DNA of 20,971 nt from a virus, in the IMG/VR virus record IMGVR_UViG_3300025070_000292, positions 1-20,971 of that record; one strand, 5' to 3'. Positions 4,552 to 11,380 of the stretch are shown one piece after another (position 1 is the first letter of the stretch; each line of letters begins with the position of its first letter). A program made the position numbers and the translations under genes. The notes under the pieces were generated by a model. The model ran no database searches and was not told the origin of the DNA. It saw only the letters and a program-made list of their open reading frames with translations.

Positions 4552-6402
4552 TCATTTAATTTGGCCCCAATTAGGGCCAGATTCGTAATCTACTTTGTTT
4601 GGTACTTCCAAGTCAACAGCAGATTCCATAATATTTTTTATTTTTTCTGCATGTTCAGGACTCTCAACAGATATATCAAGTTCATCATGTACTTGTATAT
4701 GCGGTATGATACCTTCTTTGTACAACTCAATCATTGCTTTCTTTGTCATGTCAGCTGCTGATCCTTGTATCAATTTGTTTAGTGCTTTATAAGTGTAGGC
4801 ACGTTTAATCCCTGGTCCGTGTTCCAAGAGCGCTGCGTCATGTGGCAGTGCTTTATGTATACCAAACTGATTAGGTTCCCATAAATGAAACCTACATAGT
4901 CTTCCAAGTAATGTACGAATTCTTCCTGAGTCTTGTGCTCTGCTCATTACATTATCCATTAATTGTTTAACAAATGGTACACGGTTATGATACTGTCTAA
5001 ACAAACTATCCGCTTTGTCTTTACTAACACCTAACTCTGCTTGTAATTTATTCTTACCCATACCATAGAACAGGCCAAGATTTATGGTCTTAGCCTGTGA
5101 TCTAGGTATCTCTGCCATATCAGCAACGATCGTATGAAAATCTGCGTCCCCCTCATGGTACGCATCCAATACATCGCCCACTCCATAGAGATTCTGTAAA
5201 GCTGCATAATGCACTACCAACCTAGGCTCTTGCTGAGAATAGTCAAAACAACCCCATGTATGGCCCTTCTCGGGCACAAATAACGCCCTAATCCGGGGTC
5301 CGAGGTCCTTGTTCCTAGCTGGAATTTGCTGTAAATTTGGGTTTGAATAACTGAATCTGCCTGTCACAGTTCCGCCATTATCTGATCTAAGTTGGTTAAT
5401 ATCTGCATGAATTCTACCCTTGTGAGAATACTTAATTATGGTATCAATGAAAGTGGTATGGGCCTTGTTTATTTCACGGGCCTGGGCGATTCGTTTCACC
5501 AGCGGGTGGGGGTGATTCTGTAAAAAGTTTTTAGTAAAGGAAGGTGCAGATGTTTTTTCAGTTCTATCATAGTCTAGTTTCAATTTATCGAACACTTGTG
5601 CGATCGATCGTGCAGCCCATATTTGAGTATCTATGCCTGTTTCTTTTTTTACTTCTTGGATTAACTTGGCTTCTTGTTGCGCTAGCTCTTGCTTCATTGT
5701 ATGAGCTTTTTGAACGTCCACTCGAACCCCACGAAATTTCATGGCCACTAGACAAGGAAAAAGTTCCGTCTCGAGATCAAAAATAGATTGTATATCTTGG
5801 TGAAGTATTTCTTTTTTAAGTTCTTGCCATAACTCTAAAGTTATCTCTGCATCTTTTTCTGCGTATGCACCTACATAAATGGCAGGTAGTTTATACATTT
5901 CTGCCTTGGCGTCAACACCCCAATCTTTAGCTGCAGCATATAAATCGCTTTCACTTTTTGTCTTGCCGGTGTATCTTTTAGCACAGTTGTTTAAGTCATA
6001 GCGCATTTGATTTTCATCAACAAGGGCCGATGCAATCATCGTGTCCACAATTTTACCGCTGACACTTAAACCGAGCGCTTGTATCCAACACACGTCATAC
6101 ATGGCGTTGTGAAATATTTTATCTGCAGGTGTATCTAATATACCTTGAAACCATTTTAAAACTTTTTTACGATCCATATTACCACCACCTTCGTGTGCGA
6201 TTGGATAATAACCTGACCATCCTGTTACAGCCACAGCAATTCCTGTAACATCTCCTTTACCAACTACAGATCCTGACCCCATTTTCATTAGGTCTGGGTC
6301 TTTAGTTTCTAAGTCAATTGCAATCTCATCATACTTAGATAAGTCTGGAAAATTTTCTGGTGGTAGCCACTCAGTTTGTGGTTTAAATAGAGGTATCTGC
6401 AT
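4552..6402 (-). CDS. polA: DNA polymerase I family (family A) with 3'-5' exonuclease domain
   Basis: The frame opens at a TTG at 6417, but ATG at 6402 has AAAGGG at ideal spacing and is chosen (616 aa). The exonuclease domain has D30-x-E32 (DLE), N99-x3-D103 (NAMYD) and Y180-x3-D184 (YAEKD). The polymerase domain has TGRFSYSNPNLQQIPARN, motif A with D387 and steric gate E392 (DYSQQEPR), motif B with R434, K438 and Y446, and motif C H572-D573-E574. There is no 5'-nuclease domain, as expected for phage replicases. The residue matching E. coli F762 is L442, a marker discussed in marine viral polymerase work. It lies downstream of the primase and helicase, which fits a replisome operon. It carries tandem heptamers at 4814 and 5290. 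Confidence 0.97.
   Translation of the reverse strand: MQIPLFKPQTEWLPPENFPDLSKYDEIAIDLETKDPDLMKMGSGSVVGKGDVTGIAVAVTGWSGYYPIAHEGGGNMDRKKVLKWFQGILDTPADKIFHNAMYDVCWIQALGLSVSGKIVDTMIASALVDENQMRYDLNNCAKRYTGKTKSESDLYAAAKDWGVDAKAEMYKLPAIYVGAYAEKDAEITLELWQELKKEILHQDIQSIFDLETELFPCLVAMKFRGVRVDVQKAHTMKQELAQQEAKLIQEVKKETGIDTQIWAARSIAQVFDKLKLDYDRTEKTSAPSFTKNFLQNHPHPLVKRIAQAREINKAHTTFIDTIIKYSHKGRIHADINQLRSDNGGTVTGRFSYSNPNLQQIPARNKDLGPRIRALFVPEKGHTWGCFDYSQQEPRLVVHYAALQNLYGVGDVLDAYHEGDADFHTIVADMAEIPRSQAKTINLGLFYGMGKNKLQAELGVSKDKADSLFRQYHNRVPFVKQLMDNVMSRAQDSGRIRTLLGRLCRFHLWEPNQFGIHKALPHDAALLEHGPGIKRAYTYKALNKLIQGSAADMTKKAMIELYKEGIIPHIQVHDELDISVESPEHAEKIKNIMESAVDLEVPNKVDYESGPNWGQIK
4814..4827 (+). repeat. Tandem heptamer, GGTCCGT plus variant
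   Basis: GGTCCGT followed directly by GTTCCAA inside the polymerase gene. Same strand orientation as all other copies. Confidence 0.4.
5290..5317 (+). repeat. Tandem heptamer, four degenerate units
   Basis: Four consecutive heptamers: AATCCGG, GGTCCGA, GGTCCTT and GTTCCTA, in phase. It falls in the codons for the conserved NKDLGPRIR segment of the polymerase, so protein constraint explains part of it. The GC-rich codon choices (CTC, CCC, CGG) are unusual for this AT-rich genome. Confidence 0.5.
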
Positions 6403-6604
6403 CGTAATCCCTTTCAATAATCATTTCTAAAAAGTGTATTGCTTTCAATATGTCTTGTTTCTTTCCTTTGTCACGGTGTCTTATAATATATTTTATAGCA
6501 CAGCCTTCAGGATAGAGCAACTCATTCTCTATTACAAACTTGCTAGGTTGAATTTTATATTTTTGGTAGTGAGATCCCCCGATCTGCTTGTCGTATGGTT
6601 TCAT
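6383..6604 (-). CDS. DUF3310 family protein (73 aa)
   Basis: The sequence matches the DUF3310 pattern: G-G-S-H-Y near residue 9, then an I-Q-P-x-FVIEN segment, CAIKYIIRHRDKGKKQDILKA and a HFLEMIIERD helix. The family is common in phages and resembles helical MazG-type nucleotide hydrolase folds, but no activity is established. Here it lies between helicase and polymerase, overlapping the helicase stop by four bases (ATGA) and the polymerase start by 20, so it is probably made with the replisome. Confidence 0.85.
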   Translation of the reverse strand: MKPYDKQIGGSHYQKYKIQPSKFVIENELLYPEGCAIKYIIRHRDKGKKQDILKAIHFLEMIIERDYDADTSI

Positions 6605-8091
6605 AGTATGTATCCCTTCTCATATTTTCTTGGTTCTATTATATGTAAATTTTCTTTTGTTCTAGTTGCACCAACATAAAACAATCTGTTTTCATCGTCT
6701 GGATCTCTTTCATAACCTTTCATAGTGTTTTGTGTTAAGTCTGTTAACAACACAACATTTTCTGCTTCACCACCTTTAGCTCCATGTATTGTAGATAGTT
6801 CTATTCGTGGCTTCTCATTTAGTTTTTCTCCGTTTGCTCTCATCTTTCTTAAATAGTCAACTTTAGTTTGTCCGGCGTCATCAAACGCTTCATACCAAAC
6901 TGTTTTAACTTGTAGGCCGTAATCTTTTACTAATTGATCTATGCTATAAAAAGATTCTTTTGCCATACCTTTTATTTTTTTCTTATGCCAATGTGTAGGT
7001 CCCATGTATTTAGATATACTTTCTATTTGTTTAAAGTTTACTAACTGTCCTTGTCTTAATTGTTCCCACGCTGTAGCTGCTTCGTGTAAATCTTTTTCTG
7101 TACCTCTTCTGTATCTAGATGTGTAGTAGAGTCCACGTTGATACAAAGACTCTTCTATATCTTTTAATAAATATTTAGTTCTAGCTAACACTAACCATTC
7201 ACCTGATGACATATCAATTGTATCTGTACTGTAATGTCTATGTAAACTTCCTTGATTTATTTTTGGTTGCCATGTTTTATCTATTCTATTTTTAATTCTA
7301 TTTATTATACCCATTGCAATACCGTGTACTTTAGCAGGTATTCTATATGATTGTGTTAGTGGTAAGTATTGTCCTTTTAATGCTATAAAAGAATCTACGT
7401 CTGCACCAGCCCATTTGTATATAGCTTGATCATCATCACCAGCTATAAAAGAATCTGTTGTTTTATTCCAAATAGTTTTAGCCATATCCCATTGCATAAG
7501 AGATAGATCTTGTGCTTCATCAATAAACACTACATCAAACTTTGGTGACTTGTCAGACTTTGTAAACTCTGTAATCATGTCATTAAAATCTATTAAATTA
7601 TATTCTTTCTTGTATCTTATTAATTCGTTTGCAATAATTCTAAGCGTGCTTCTCTCCAGGTCTTGTGTGTGTTCTTGTAAATCAAACTGTTGTTCTGGTG
7701 TAAGATTTCTAAGTTGTGCTAGCTGTATAATTCTTAAATACTCACTGTCAGAAGTAAACGCACTGCCCTGATCTTCTTGATAGTCTGCATATGTTACAGC
7801 AAAACCTAGTTTCTTTCCTAGATCTCTGTAATGTCTTTGCTGCATTACCTGATCTTTTTTAATTCCTAGTCTTCTGAATGCTAGAGAATGTAGTGTTCTA
7901 AAATATGGTAGGTCATCTTCTGTGAGATTAAATTTTTTAATTGCTCTGTCTCTTGCTTCGTACGCAGCTTTTTGTGTAAATGCAAAGTACCCAACTTTAT
8001 CAGGATCTGTTTGTTTTAAATAGTCATCTACTTTGTTTAATAGTGTTGTAGTCTTACCTGTGCCTGGTGGTCCTAATACTATTGTTCTCAT
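6601..8091 (-). CDS. UvrD/Rep-like superfamily 1 DNA helicase (496 aa)
   Basis: All main SF1A motifs are visible: Walker A GPPGTGKT (residues 7-14), motif Ia FAFTQKAAYEAR, DEAQD (191-195), motif III GDDDQAIYKWAG (218-229), LTQSYR (motif IV), STIHGAKGGEAENVV (motif V, from 433) and FYVGATR (motif VI, to 477). At 496 residues it is shorter than cellular UvrD or Rep (about 670-720), and it begins directly with Walker A, so the usual N-terminal Q motif is missing. It should unwind DNA for the phage replisome. The start shares one base with the primase stop (TAATG). Confidence 0.95.
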   Translation of the reverse strand: MRTIVLGPPGTGKTTTLLNKVDDYLKQTDPDKVGYFAFTQKAAYEARDRAIKKFNLTEDDLPYFRTLHSLAFRRLGIKKDQVMQQRHYRDLGKKLGFAVTYADYQEDQGSAFTSDSEYLRIIQLAQLRNLTPEQQFDLQEHTQDLERSTLRIIANELIRYKKEYNLIDFNDMITEFTKSDKSPKFDVVFIDEAQDLSLMQWDMAKTIWNKTTDSFIAGDDDQAIYKWAGADVDSFIALKGQYLPLTQSYRIPAKVHGIAMGIINRIKNRIDKTWQPKINQGSLHRHYSTDTIDMSSGEWLVLARTKYLLKDIEESLYQRGLYYTSRYRRGTEKDLHEAATAWEQLRQGQLVNFKQIESISKYMGPTHWHKKKIKGMAKESFYSIDQLVKDYGLQVKTVWYEAFDDAGQTKVDYLRKMRANGEKLNEKPRIELSTIHGAKGGEAENVVLLTDLTQNTMKGYERDPDDENRLFYVGATRTKENLHIIEPRKYEKGYIL

Positions 8092-9578
8092 TAGTATGGT
8101 GCCTCTTCTTTTAATACTTTTTGTGTGTACTCATCTGTTTTTTTATCAAACTGTTTAACAACGAACACAGATATTCTTTCTTTACCAATACGTTTGTCAT
8201 CACAGTTACATGTTTCTTTTAACATCTGTGCTGTTCTAGAATATTGTACGTCCCAACGTTTTCTAATTAAAAACTGATTGTAAAATTTATCAAATATAAA
8301 ATGGTGGTAGCCATCTTTAGTTAACACACCACCACGTTTTAAATCTTTTATGTCAGACCCTATGTGTCTGTCTAAACAAAACTCTTCTAAATGATTTTGT
8401 AATTGATCTTGTGTAGTCACACCTTCTGGTGGATCTATTGGTTCGTGGTTCTTCATCAATGGATTTATTATCATGTCCCAATCTTTTGGTTTTACTGTTG
8501 GTGGTTTAAAATCTAATTGTTCCATACATGCTTCCTGGAATAAACTTTGTTGTTTTAAAAATTTTACATTTTCTAAGTGTAGTCGTTCACCATCTACGTT
8601 TAGATAGTAGTATGGTTTTTCTAATTTAATTTTTTGTAAATCTGTTAGTGCAGGAAATACTATCTCTTCACCAATACCAAACTTTCTTTCTCTACATAGT
8701 TTTTTATCACACAAATTACACATAGGTGTATCATTACATTTATATCCCCATTCTTTTTTGTCATGTTGTCTCTTAATTATTTCTACTTCAGACTCACTAA
8801 GTGGTACAGTCGATGCTGTTGCATTAAACAAAGTCATTTTACTTTTCCATTCTGCTGGCCATTTCTTTTTAGCATACACACCAAAATGAAACATAGAATT
8901 GTTACGACCACCTTCTGGTATTTTATTCATAGCCATAAGTTCTATGCATGGTGGTGCATCAGAATATTCTGATTGTGGTCTTTCTATTTTTATTTTTGTA
9001 ATGTCTGTCTGTTTGACTGTATTATATATTGTATAAAATTCTTCTAATGTTGCAGCTTCTCCATCTTCTTTAAATGCATAACGTGTTGTTTCATTACCAT
9101 TAAAGTATGGTAGGTTTAAAAAATTACCTGTGTCATCTGCTGATTTTAATTGTATTTGTTTTGGAAAGACTTCTGATCCGCCGTATCCTAGTAGTGTTTT
9201 AATTTCTGTTAGCTTATCTCTCATTCTTTCTGCAGCTACCGGTTGCTCGGAGAAGAGAAAGACGTGTGCTCCTCCGCTCTTTGACCTACACACAGCCAAA
9301 GGCAGTTTAAATTGTTTTATCTTATCTATTAATTTTTTGTGATCAAACCCTGCGTATGAATCTATATCTACACATCCCCACACACATTGATTGTCTTCGT
9401 TAATTGGTATAATACCAAGACTCTGTGTACCATTTAAATGCATGGTCCACAGTTCCGTGGTCACTGGTTGACGTACTACGAACGATTGGCCTTTTAATTT
9501 GACACCATTCTCAGCTGGCGTACTTACTTTAGTACAACCATGCGCGCGCTCCAATCCTTTAAATATTTTTTCAAACAT
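8091..9578 (-). CDS. Archaeo-eukaryotic-type primase (TOTE-like prim-pol), 495 aa
   Basis: Residues about 45-200 show the AEP catalytic pattern: D71-x-D73 in CVDIDSY, SGGAH with H105, and EVFPKQ (136-141) followed by GNFLNLPYFNG, a combination typical of TOTE-system primases. Further on, GGRNN (223-227) resembles a PriCT-type helical region, and C281, C287, C290 and C295 form a probable metal-binding cluster before RKFGIG. The C-terminal 200 residues are unassigned. It should make primers for the family A polymerase. No Shine-Dalgarno sequence precedes the ATG; a hairpin at 9588-9617 lies there instead. A TOPRIM/DnaG-type primase is ruled out by the motifs. Confidence 0.85.
   Translation of the reverse strand: MFEKIFKGLERAHGCTKVSTPAENGVKLKGQSFVVRQPVTTELWTMHLNGTQSLGIIPINEDNQCVWGCVDIDSYAGFDHKKLIDKIKQFKLPLAVCRSKSGGAHVFLFSEQPVAAERMRDKLTEIKTLLGYGGSEVFPKQIQLKSADDTGNFLNLPYFNGNETTRYAFKEDGEAATLEEFYTIYNTVKQTDITKIKIERPQSEYSDAPPCIELMAMNKIPEGGRNNSMFHFGVYAKKKWPAEWKSKMTLFNATASTVPLSESEVEIIKRQHDKKEWGYKCNDTPMCNLCDKKLCRERKFGIGEEIVFPALTDLQKIKLEKPYYYLNVDGERLHLENVKFLKQQSLFQEACMEQLDFKPPTVKPKDWDMIINPLMKNHEPIDPPEGVTTQDQLQNHLEEFCLDRHIGSDIKDLKRGGVLTKDGYHHFIFDKFYNQFLIRKRWDVQYSRTAQMLKETCNCDDKRIGKERISVFVVKQFDKKTDEYTQKVLKEEAPY
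9452..9465 (+). repeat. Tandem heptamer, GTTCCGT plus variant
   Basis: GTTCCGT followed by GGTCACT inside the primase gene, with a related GGTCCAC one base out of phase just before (9444-9450). Same orientation as the other copies. Confidence 0.4.
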
Positions 9579-9587
9579 AAATTTTAA

Positions 9588-9617
9588 TAGGCGCTTCCAC
9601 TCTCGCTTCCGCGCCTA
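9588..9617. repeat. Hairpin upstream of the primase start
   Basis: TAGGCGC (9588-9594) pairs perfectly with GCGCCTA (9611-9617) around a 16-base loop holding a repeated CGCTTCC. It occupies the 53-base gap between the ssDNA-binding gene and the primase, ending nine bases before the primase ATG. No T-run follows, so it is more likely a translation or mRNA-processing element than a terminator. Confidence 0.5.
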
Positions 9618-9631
9618 CTCCTAGGATTCGA

Positions 9632-10381
9632 TTAGTACGGTGATGCTTCTTTAGTATCTTCTGATCCGTGTTTAACCTGCACTTCATCTTTGCCGACACT
9701 TTGAGCAAAAGCTTTTGCCATTTCGTAGACACCTTTGTCTTCGACTGGTCCTGCTTTTTCTACTTCCCATCCAAACCATGTTCCTTTGTCATTAGACATC
9801 TGAACAGTAGATAGATTATAAATGTGGCTGTATGTTGGCGGTGTAAACAAACCATTTTTACCTTGTAGCTTGATACCCATCATCAATGAGTTCCATTTTC
9901 TACTAACTTTAAGTTGAGTAGATTTCATAGAAATCAAAGCTGTTGATGGACTCTTACCAAGAGTCAATACAAAATGACTTGCAGTGTTATCAAGATAATT
10001 ACCATTTGGTAATCTGTCTTTGTAGTCTTTACCTCTTGTGGTTTGACTAACGATATCACTATCTGCACTGTGAATTGCAACAGGTGCACCACTGCTGGTA
10101 CCTCTGTCTTGCCATTCTATATATTGTCTTTTGTAATGACAAGGTACAACACTAATTTTATCAAACAATTCGTTTGTGACAGTGTTGATTATTTTGCCGG
10201 GCTCTGCGCCATCGACATATTTACCATCTCTTTTGTTTACTTCTGGAGATAGTTGTCCCAAAATTTTTAGGAAAGGTAAGGCAAGATCTTCTTGCGCTAT
10301 ATTCTGAGCACCTTGGTTTGCATCAGCTTCAAACATATTGACTGCTAATGCTCCTTGTTTTTTCTCTGTTACTTGGTTCAT
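9632..10381 (-). CDS. Putative single-stranded DNA-binding protein (249 aa)
   Basis: The protein starts MNQVTEKKQGALAVNMFEAD and contains ALPFLKILGQLSPEVNKRDG, then a segment rich in aromatic residues (YKRQYIEWQDRG) and a C-terminal acidic stretch (GSEDTKEASPY). Proteins of this kind in phage replication operons are often annotated as gp2.5-like ssDNA-binding proteins; the OB fold cannot be proved by eye. A clear ribosome-binding site (AAGGAAC) precedes the start. Position directly before the primase supports a DNA-coating role. An alternative is a recombination mediator. Confidence 0.6.
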   Translation of the reverse strand: MNQVTEKKQGALAVNMFEADANQGAQNIAQEDLALPFLKILGQLSPEVNKRDGKYVDGAEPGKIINTVTNELFDKISVVPCHYKRQYIEWQDRGTSSGAPVAIHSADSDIVSQTTRGKDYKDRLPNGNYLDNTASHFVLTLGKSPSTALISMKSTQLKVSRKWNSLMMGIKLQGKNGLFTPPTYSHIYNLSTVQMSNDKGTWFGWEVEKAGPVEDKGVYEMAKAFAQSVGKDEVQVKHGSEDTKEASPY

Positions 10382-10383
10382 TT

Positions 10384-10938
10384 TTATTTGTTCCTTTTTA
10401 TTGTTGTCTTATTTCCAACGAACACGTTGAAAATTTCCGTTGGCATTGTTTTACCTGCCTCTAAACGCTCACGGACTAGCGCTTTAAGAGTCATGGGTTC
10501 AACCTTCAACTTTTGTGTTGGTTGAAACCCACGTTCCTCTGCAAGAGCAGCATAATCAGCTGCCTTGTTATCCTCGTTACGACCGAATGATACGGATATC
10601 TCATTTTTGATTATATCACCCAAGCCATTTTCACGAAGCCAGTTAAATGCTTTCTCTCTGTTTGCTACAGAAATATTTGCACTATAATTTGGTTTAACAT
10701 CTACCGAAGAACCATCTGCTAGTTTGAGATGTGATAATCCCATTTCTGCCATCATGGTAGGAATTACTTCTCCTGATAATCGGTCATGTTCTTTTTTTAA
10801 ATCTTTCAGATTGTTTTCACTTGTTTCTATTCTATTATTTAAACCTTCTAACATTTGTATTTGATCTGCTAGAGATTGTATACTTGCTGTTTTATCAACA
10901 AGGTCTTGTTGGTCTTTTTCAAAATCAATACTACTCAT
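10384..10938 (-). CDS. Conserved phage protein with N-terminal coiled coil (184 aa)
   Basis: Residues about 5-60 form a charged helix with coiled-coil spacing (IQSLADQIQMLEGLNNRIE). A compact domain follows with the motifs LKLADGSSVDVKPNYSANIS, FNWLRENGLGDIIKNEI and MTLKALVRERLEAG. I recall these motifs in marine phage replication operons, always as unknown protein. It overlaps the preceding gene by eight bases and ends two bases before the ssDNA-binding gene. It may be a partner of that protein; this is inference from position. Confidence 0.75.
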   Translation of the reverse strand: MSSIDFEKDQQDLVDKTASIQSLADQIQMLEGLNNRIETSENNLKDLKKEHDRLSGEVIPTMMAEMGLSHLKLADGSSVDVKPNYSANISVANREKAFNWLRENGLGDIIKNEISVSFGRNEDNKAADYAALAEERGFQPTQKLKVEPMTLKALVRERLEAGKTMPTEIFNVFVGNKTTIKRNK

Positions 10939-11326
10939 CTATTTTTCCTTTCTCGTATAAATCTATTTCAATGGAATAATATTTTCTTTCTTGTTTATCC
11001 CACTTCAATAAGTTGTATTTGCCATTTGTTATATCAGAAACTATAGAACAAGCTACACCTATAATTGCAGGATCACCTGTCAATAATAAATAATCTTTTT
11101 TTCTATAGTTAGCTAATGCTTTTCTAAGTTTAAAAATAAGTGGACCAGGTGAAAAAATTATTTGTGAAAGTTCTGGTAATAAAAATTTAAACTTTCCATA
11201 ATTTGCTGCACCCATAATATTAATTTTAGGACGACCTTCTGCAGTTCCTGGAATTTCTTGAATTACATAAACTGCTGGTGCATCTTCATTTTTAATATCT
11301 TCATATCTAATTATTTTTTCTTTCAT
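10931..11326 (-). CDS. Conserved phage protein, first gene of the replication operon (131 aa)
   Basis: A TTG-opened frame extends to 11335, but that start lies inside the -10 region, so the ATG at 11326 is chosen. The protein contains PAVYVIQEIPGTAEGRPKIN, GKFKFLLPELSQIIFSPGP and DYLLLTGDPAIIGVACSIVS, motifs I recall from marine phages with no function attached. The pattern suggests an alpha/beta fold; no catalytic residues stand out. The ATG follows the -10 box by seven bases, so the transcript appears leaderless. Confidence 0.75.
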   Translation of the reverse strand: MKEKIIRYEDIKNEDAPAVYVIQEIPGTAEGRPKINIMGAANYGKFKFLLPELSQIIFSPGPLIFKLRKALANYRKKDYLLLTGDPAIIGVACSIVSDITNGKYNLLKWDKQERKYYSIEIDLYEKGKIDE

Positions 11327-11328
11327 GC

Positions 11329-11357
11329 TTGACAATATAGGTCCGAGTTGTTATCTT
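11329..11357 (+). promoter_or_regulatory. Rightward promoter of the SNF2 helicase
   Basis: TTGACA (11329-11334), 17 bases, TATCTT (11352-11357). Start expected near 11364, leaving a leader of about 17 bases with a weak GAAAGAAG ribosome-binding stretch before the ATG at 11381. It is superimposed on the leftward promoter. Confidence 0.7.
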
Positions 11358-11362
11358 GTCAA
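11334..11362 (-). promoter_or_regulatory. Leftward promoter of the replication operon
   Basis: On the minus strand TTGACA (11357-11362), 17 bases, TATATT (11334-11339). Start expected at about 11327, next to the ATG at 11326, so the mRNA is probably leaderless. Each -10 box shares one base with the opposite promoter's -35 box. Confidence 0.75.
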
Positions 11363-11380
11363 GTAGAAAGAAGAAAAATT

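Follow-up and report, generated by a model that had tools for sequence, protein, structure and literature searches.

The junction between the replication operon and the helicase gene

The window, a stretch of 20,971 bases from a virus record (35% GC), carries one long gene on the + strand, encoding an SNF2-family helicase of 476 aa (PF00176 and PF00271; 11381..12811, starting at ATG 11381). On the − strand, ATG 11326 is the start of a leftward replication operon, of which the first gene encodes a Pam3 gp32-like protein of 131 aa (PF23992, phrog_5888; 10931..11326) and the remaining part (4552..10938, − strand) encodes Pam3 gp33-like and gp34-like proteins, a primase, a helicase (phrog_1967) and DNA polymerase A, together with small ORFs. 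The closest named records are phage 023Pt_psg01 (65% at the amino acid level) and Pelagibacter phage HTVC027P (63%), both with the same layout. By the genes that make up the replication module beside the SNF2 helicase gene, and by their order, the window can be assigned as a fragment related to the HTVC023P-type pelagiphages, a family that is abundant in the ocean and infects SAR11 bacteria. Both 023Pt_psg01 and HTVC027P belong to this type (PMC9599517, PMC12753301).

The two start codons are separated by a gap of 54 bp, ATG to ATG, and within it lies an element that can be read as two reciprocally overlapping divergent sigma-70-type promoters (11328-11363, both strands; CTTGACAATATAGGTCCGAGTTGTTATCTTGTCAAG). 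The rightward promoter, facing the helicase gene, has a -35 box TTGACA at 11329..11334 and a -10 box TATCTT at 11352..11357 (+ strand). The leftward promoter, facing the replication operon, has its TTGACA at 11357..11362 and a -10 box TATATT at 11334..11339 (− strand). The spacer is 17 bp in each case. Base 11334 is common to the left -10 and the right -35, base 11357 is common to the right -10 and the left -35, and the outer eight bases form a perfect inverted repeat. These features, including the single base that each -10 has in common with the opposite -35, had been described in a first-pass annotation of the sequence and are correct on re-reading; absent from that description was an extended -10 motif, TGn, present as TGT in the rightward promoter (11349..11351, + strand). 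The outermost C/G pair that brings the repeat to 8 bp is not kept among relatives, where the conserved symmetric arm is instead 11 bp, TTGACAATATA on one side and TATATTGTCAA on the other.

On each strand a TTGACA-like -35 is followed at 16-18 bp by a -10 of the TATAAT or TATATN form, and a promoter scan of the 10-13 kb region gave eight promoter-like sites, with the mirrored pair scoring highest (11/12 and 10/12 matches). The -35, spacer and -10 of both promoters match the alphaproteobacterial sigma-70 promoter, with consensus CTTGAC-N17-CTATAT (PMC2873474), and the phage element differs from it solely by superposition on both strands. The TATATN form of the -10 and the spacer fit this consensus, in keeping with a SAR11 host. 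Promoters of host type recur in the window, as at 1813-1771 (− strand), where CTTGACA-18-TATATT lies upstream of a small ORF ending at 1583.

Conservation of the promoter pair

The window is AT-rich, which favours accidental resemblance to promoters in intergenic DNA. However, TTGACA-N18..28-TGTCAA occurs once in the window against an expectation of 0.04, and the full mirrored pair arose once in 4000 simulated 21-kb sequences of the window's dinucleotide composition. Together with the deep conservation described below, these figures effectively rule out chance as the origin of the element.

The helicases of the window, psg01, HTVC027P and HTVC023P, together with the protein encoded to the left of the window's helicase gene, were used to scan IMG/VR and yielded several hundred junctions, of which 343 protein-fetched ones with sufficient sequence were reduced to 113 representatives at <90% helicase identity. 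Conservation counts were confined to protein-fetched loci, since loci fetched by DNA pattern bias the identity of the arms. Elements were located by anchoring on the TTGACW/WGTCAA pair; in AT-rich relatives, an E. coli matrix combined with choice of the nearest ORF puts some of the left starts and -10 boxes in the wrong place. The relatives are contig fragments that are incompletely independent, and their junctions may recombine relative to the helicase tree.

An inverted TTGACW...WGTCAA pair spanning 33-38 bp is present in 83 of the 113 representatives, compared with 0.05% of dinucleotide-preserving shuffles of the upstream regions. Its presence falls with helicase identity to the window, from 28/29 at ≥80% and 25/27 at 70-79% to 30/43 at 60-69% and 0/14 below 60%, so the pair belongs to the window's clade and to the psg01 clade. 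The latter has the TTGACA pair at a 37-bp span with a weaker left -10. The pair is missing in most HTVC027P-clade and in all HTVC023P-clade representatives, which have the same gene order. The mirror spacing, whose conservation in related phages the first-pass annotation had proposed as a check, is thus kept in the window's clade and altered or lost in the other three.

Identity of the -35 hexamers is in itself no evidence, because these hexamers selected the set. The positions outside them are more informative. Both -10 boxes (at least 4/5 of TATAT, spacer 16-18) are present in 72 of the 83 paired junctions, compared with 6.5% after shuffling of the inner bases. Across the 23 representatives with a span of 34 bp, mean pairwise identity is 1.00 at the left -10 positions outside the -35 and 0.90 at those of the right -10, positions that played no part in selection of the set. 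The middle 12 bp, with an identity of 0.51, change about as freely as four-fold sites of the same helicase genes (0.55). The spacer within each promoter is held at 16-17 bp, most often 17, even as the outer span takes values of 33-38 bp. At the comparative level, these sequences demonstrate selection on both promoters and not on the middle.

Evolution of the element by promoter rules

Departures of the right -10 from TATATT are accompanied by a compensating change. Among junctions with a span of 33-34 bp and a right -10 of the form TAnnnT, TGn precedes the box in 11/11 representatives in which it departs from TATATT and in 0/15 in which it does not; counted over unique sequences, the figures are 30/31 for weak boxes and 0/26 for TATATT. 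An extended -10 that makes up for a weak -10 box is a classical form of compensation. On the helicase tree the TGn trait changes about nine times, and all five supported independent contrasts agree with the association, with none opposed (p 0.06, five contrasts being too few to reach p 0.05).

A second departure is seen in three junctions (L034-L036) in which the promoters are adjacent instead of superimposed, some 110 bp upstream of the helicase gene. The left promoter is TTGACA-16-TATATT, 7 nt before the ATG, and the right promoter is TTGACA-17-TATATT, whilst the mirrored and now unneeded -35 boxes have degenerated into TTAGCA and TCTTAA. As their three junctions are identical, they count as a single lineage. 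The conserved -10 boxes, the spacers, the behaviour of TGn and this separated lineage are strong comparative evidence for the proposal of the first-pass annotation that two divergent sigma-70 promoters are superimposed here.

The same observations bear on a further suggestion of that annotation, that a dimeric regulator could use the inverted repeat (CTTGACAA/TTGTCAAG) as its operator. In the strong form of this reading, the likeness to promoters would be secondary. A perfect repeat of 7-8 bp, with arms that are nearly invariant within the window's clade, is what an operator might look like. However, its half-sites would have to tolerate a separation varying from 33 to 38 bp while the promoter spacers stay fixed, and the outer C/G pair is not conserved. 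Nor would an operator call for compensation of weak -10 boxes by TGn, or for decay of the half-sites that fell out of use once the promoters separated. Since the promoter consensus explains the arms, the middle is neutral, the span varies and unused half-sites decay, the operator reading is disfavoured and must be considered very unlikely.

A predicted leaderless replication message

If the left promoter is used, transcription should start on or beside the AUG of the replication operon, at the A of the ATG or 1 nt before it (11326..11327, − strand), since the -10 box ends 7 nt from the ATG. The replication mRNA is therefore predicted to be leaderless. This distance is maintained among relatives: the end of the left -10 lies 7-8 nt from the first open ATG in 44 of 57 window-clade representatives, despite the changing span. 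In 45 of the 48 clade members with that arrangement of -10 and ATG, no other ATG, GTG or TTG precedes the conserved core of the protein. The prediction of a leaderless replication message, with the left -10 at 6-8 nt from the sole usable ATG, is new here and formed no part of the first-pass annotation. In the psg01 clade, the left gene is leadered. In the alphaproteobacteria, leaderless messages that start with AUG are known; Sinorhizobium meliloti has 171 of them (PMC3616915). The window contains another candidate for a leaderless start, at 2671-2636 (− strand), where TTGACA-17-TAGTTT is followed after 6 nt by the ATG of a 61-aa ORF beginning ATGAAAGAAA.

The rightward message is predicted, from the position of its -10, to have a short 5' leader (11364..11380, + strand) containing the purine-rich sequence AGAAAGAAG; AGAAAG is present in nearly all relatives. 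The symmetry of the junction extends beyond the promoters, in that ATGAAAGAAA just past the left start (11320-11326) mirrors AGAAAGAAG in the right leader (11364-11372). The ATG of the leaderless left message may accordingly have emerged inside what was once an AGAAAG leader. One relative (L119) still has leader-like sequence on both sides.

Related arrangements in other genomes

An exact search for TTGACAWTATA-N10..14-TATAWTGTCAA was made in bacterial and archaeal genomes (264 billion bases) and in IMG/VR. Just 46 places in the bacterial and archaeal genomes match, and 29 of these have the N12 gap that gives a 17-bp spacer on both strands, compared with about nine expected if gaps were random. 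Among the matches listed from IMG/VR there are at least 120 stretches, 107 of 120 at the helicase/gp32-like junction, and the N12 gap is found in 109 of the 119 counted. The reciprocal register can thus arise more than once, and in the searched collections it is concentrated in this phage group.

Ten of the 29 N12 matches lie at a single divergent gene pair in Clostridia (L288, L289, L294, L296, L300, L304, L310, L328, L329 and L331), apparently encoding a TetR-like regulator and a DsbA-like oxidoreductase, as read from the N-termini. The 34-bp clostridial element has the same reciprocal architecture, TTGACATTATA-N12-TATAATGTCAA, but differs in its unrelated genes and hosts, in -10 boxes of TATAAT rather than TATATT, in the regulator-like gene of the pair and in having several palindromic centres. 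Its middle is sometimes palindromic, for example GAACnnGTTC.

Two known systems invite comparison. The tetA/tetR region of Tn10 has overlapping divergent promoters (Bertrand et al. 1983, Gene 23:149, as cited in PMC11686294), and resembles the phage element in general layout, in that divergent sigma-70 promoters overlap in a short intergenic region, with polymerase at one bearing on the other. In Tn10, TetR controls both promoters through two operators, and this repressor is itself one of the products. In the phage, by contrast, neither gene is regulator-like and the middle 12 bp are neutral. The second system is the bidirectional promoter of Warman, Grainger and colleagues (Nat Microbiol 2021; PMC10268837; PMC12825309), where one -10 is shared and the starts lie 7-25 bp apart, usually 18. 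Here too the DNA is pseudo-symmetrical, polymerase could be accommodated in either orientation, binding should be exclusive and competition is possible. However, the phage element lies outside this class as defined by start distance and a shared -10 (PMC10268837): each of its -10 boxes overlaps the opposite -35 by one base, the -10 boxes are 12 bp apart and the predicted starts are about 38 bp apart. HTVC027P-type junctions (L413-L492) are without the mirrored TTGACA and have purine-rich leaders on both strands (CTTTC...GAAAG) around a central TATATA-like region; these are possibly bidirectional promoters of the Warman type, with a shared -10.

Competition between the two promoters

The arrangement is best explained as two sigma-70 promoters of the alphaproteobacterial host type, set back to back within 34 bp. 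Each arm (TTGACAATATA) would serve one promoter as its -35 and, on the opposite strand, the other promoter as its -10: the TTGACA of the arm would be the -35 of the outward-reading promoter from that side, and ATATA on the other strand would be part of the opposite -10. The left promoter would start the replication operon, giving a leaderless mRNA, and the right promoter would start the lone SNF2 helicase gene, giving an mRNA with AGAAAG in a short leader. Only a single polymerase could act on the element at any moment, and the two transcripts would be produced in competition. We consider it highly probable that the element works in this way, as back-to-back promoters of host type from which the replication operon and the helicase are made in competition. 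Use by polymerase, the start sites, leaderless translation and exclusion are all inferred from the arrangement of the DNA.

The first-pass annotation had stated that RNA polymerase cannot occupy both promoters at once. The geometry argues for this: base pairs at 11334 and 11357 are common to both promoters, and one holoenzyme would cover the entire element, so that initiation should be exclusive. Precedent is provided by bidirectional promoters, for which exclusive polymerase binding is established (PMC12825309). For bidirectional promoters in E. coli, competition was seen only where one or both directions are strong, and basal ones are without measurable competition (PMC12825309). Competition is to be expected in the phage because both -35 boxes are full consensus.

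That annotation had gone further, calling the element a simple built-in switch. Competition could indeed set the ratio of the two transcripts, with firings exclusive, but switching would call for an activator or a repressor, and the overlap is missing from one lineage. A true regulatory toggle, in which a phage or host factor tips polymerase between the two directions during infection, would exploit the exclusive geometry, and in E. coli activation of one direction is able to repress the other via polymerase competition (PMC12825309). Autoregulated use in Clostridia is also suggested by the position of the clostridial TTGACATTATA-N12-TATAATGTCAA element beside a TetR-like gene, as far as gene names read from N-termini can be trusted. 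However, in the phage no regulator gene adjoins the element, the genes on either side being those for the SNF2 helicase and the Pam3 gp32-like protein, and there is no conserved factor site between the arms, since the middle evolves like neutral sites. A toggle is thus unlikely.

A stronger alternative is genome compaction alone, in which ordinary promoters have been crowded into a short divergent gap, overlap being the closest packing that is stable, and exclusion plays no part in regulation; we regard this as an even bet. The small gap between the start codons fits such an origin, as do the looser spans and leadered left gene of psg01-type relatives, the loss of the pair from HTVC027P- and HTVC023P-type phages, the side-by-side promoters of L034-L036 and the basal bidirectional promoters of E. 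coli that show no measurable competition (PMC12825309). Against it, the reciprocal register persists over saturated four-fold sites even though spans of 37-38 bp are accessible, and the full-consensus -35 boxes lead one to expect competition, but neither point discriminates sharply. Since a separated lineage and clades without the pair exist, the overlap is dispensable. We lean slightly towards the overlap being kept for compactness, with competition as a consequence, rather than for competition itself.

The perfectly reciprocal promoters could also be viewed as a dispenser that needs no regulator and fires one way at a time on every phage genome, tying a leaderless message for replication to a leadered one for the helicase. 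Their relative amounts and their timing would then depend on promoter strength, including tuning by TGn on the right side, and on the way in which leaderless messages are translated by the cell during infection. This is speculative, and we attach a small though appreciable chance to it. The one HTVC023P-type phage for which RNA-seq of infection was found is HTVC027P, whose clade lost the mirror, and the main text of that paper (PMC12753301) names neither start sites nor the genes flanking the junction.

Significance

All early genes of HTVC027P are without known function. The element described here is a precise and conserved promoter pair of host type at the head of the replication operon, and it provides predictions at the level of single bases, namely two start sites and a leaderless replication message. 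Overlapped, loosened, separated and lost versions are held by close relatives, which amounts to a naturally replicated experiment on overlapping promoters. As far as can be judged from comparison of these genomes, the strictly reciprocal 34-bp pair is an arrangement that selection appears to have maintained rather than tolerated.
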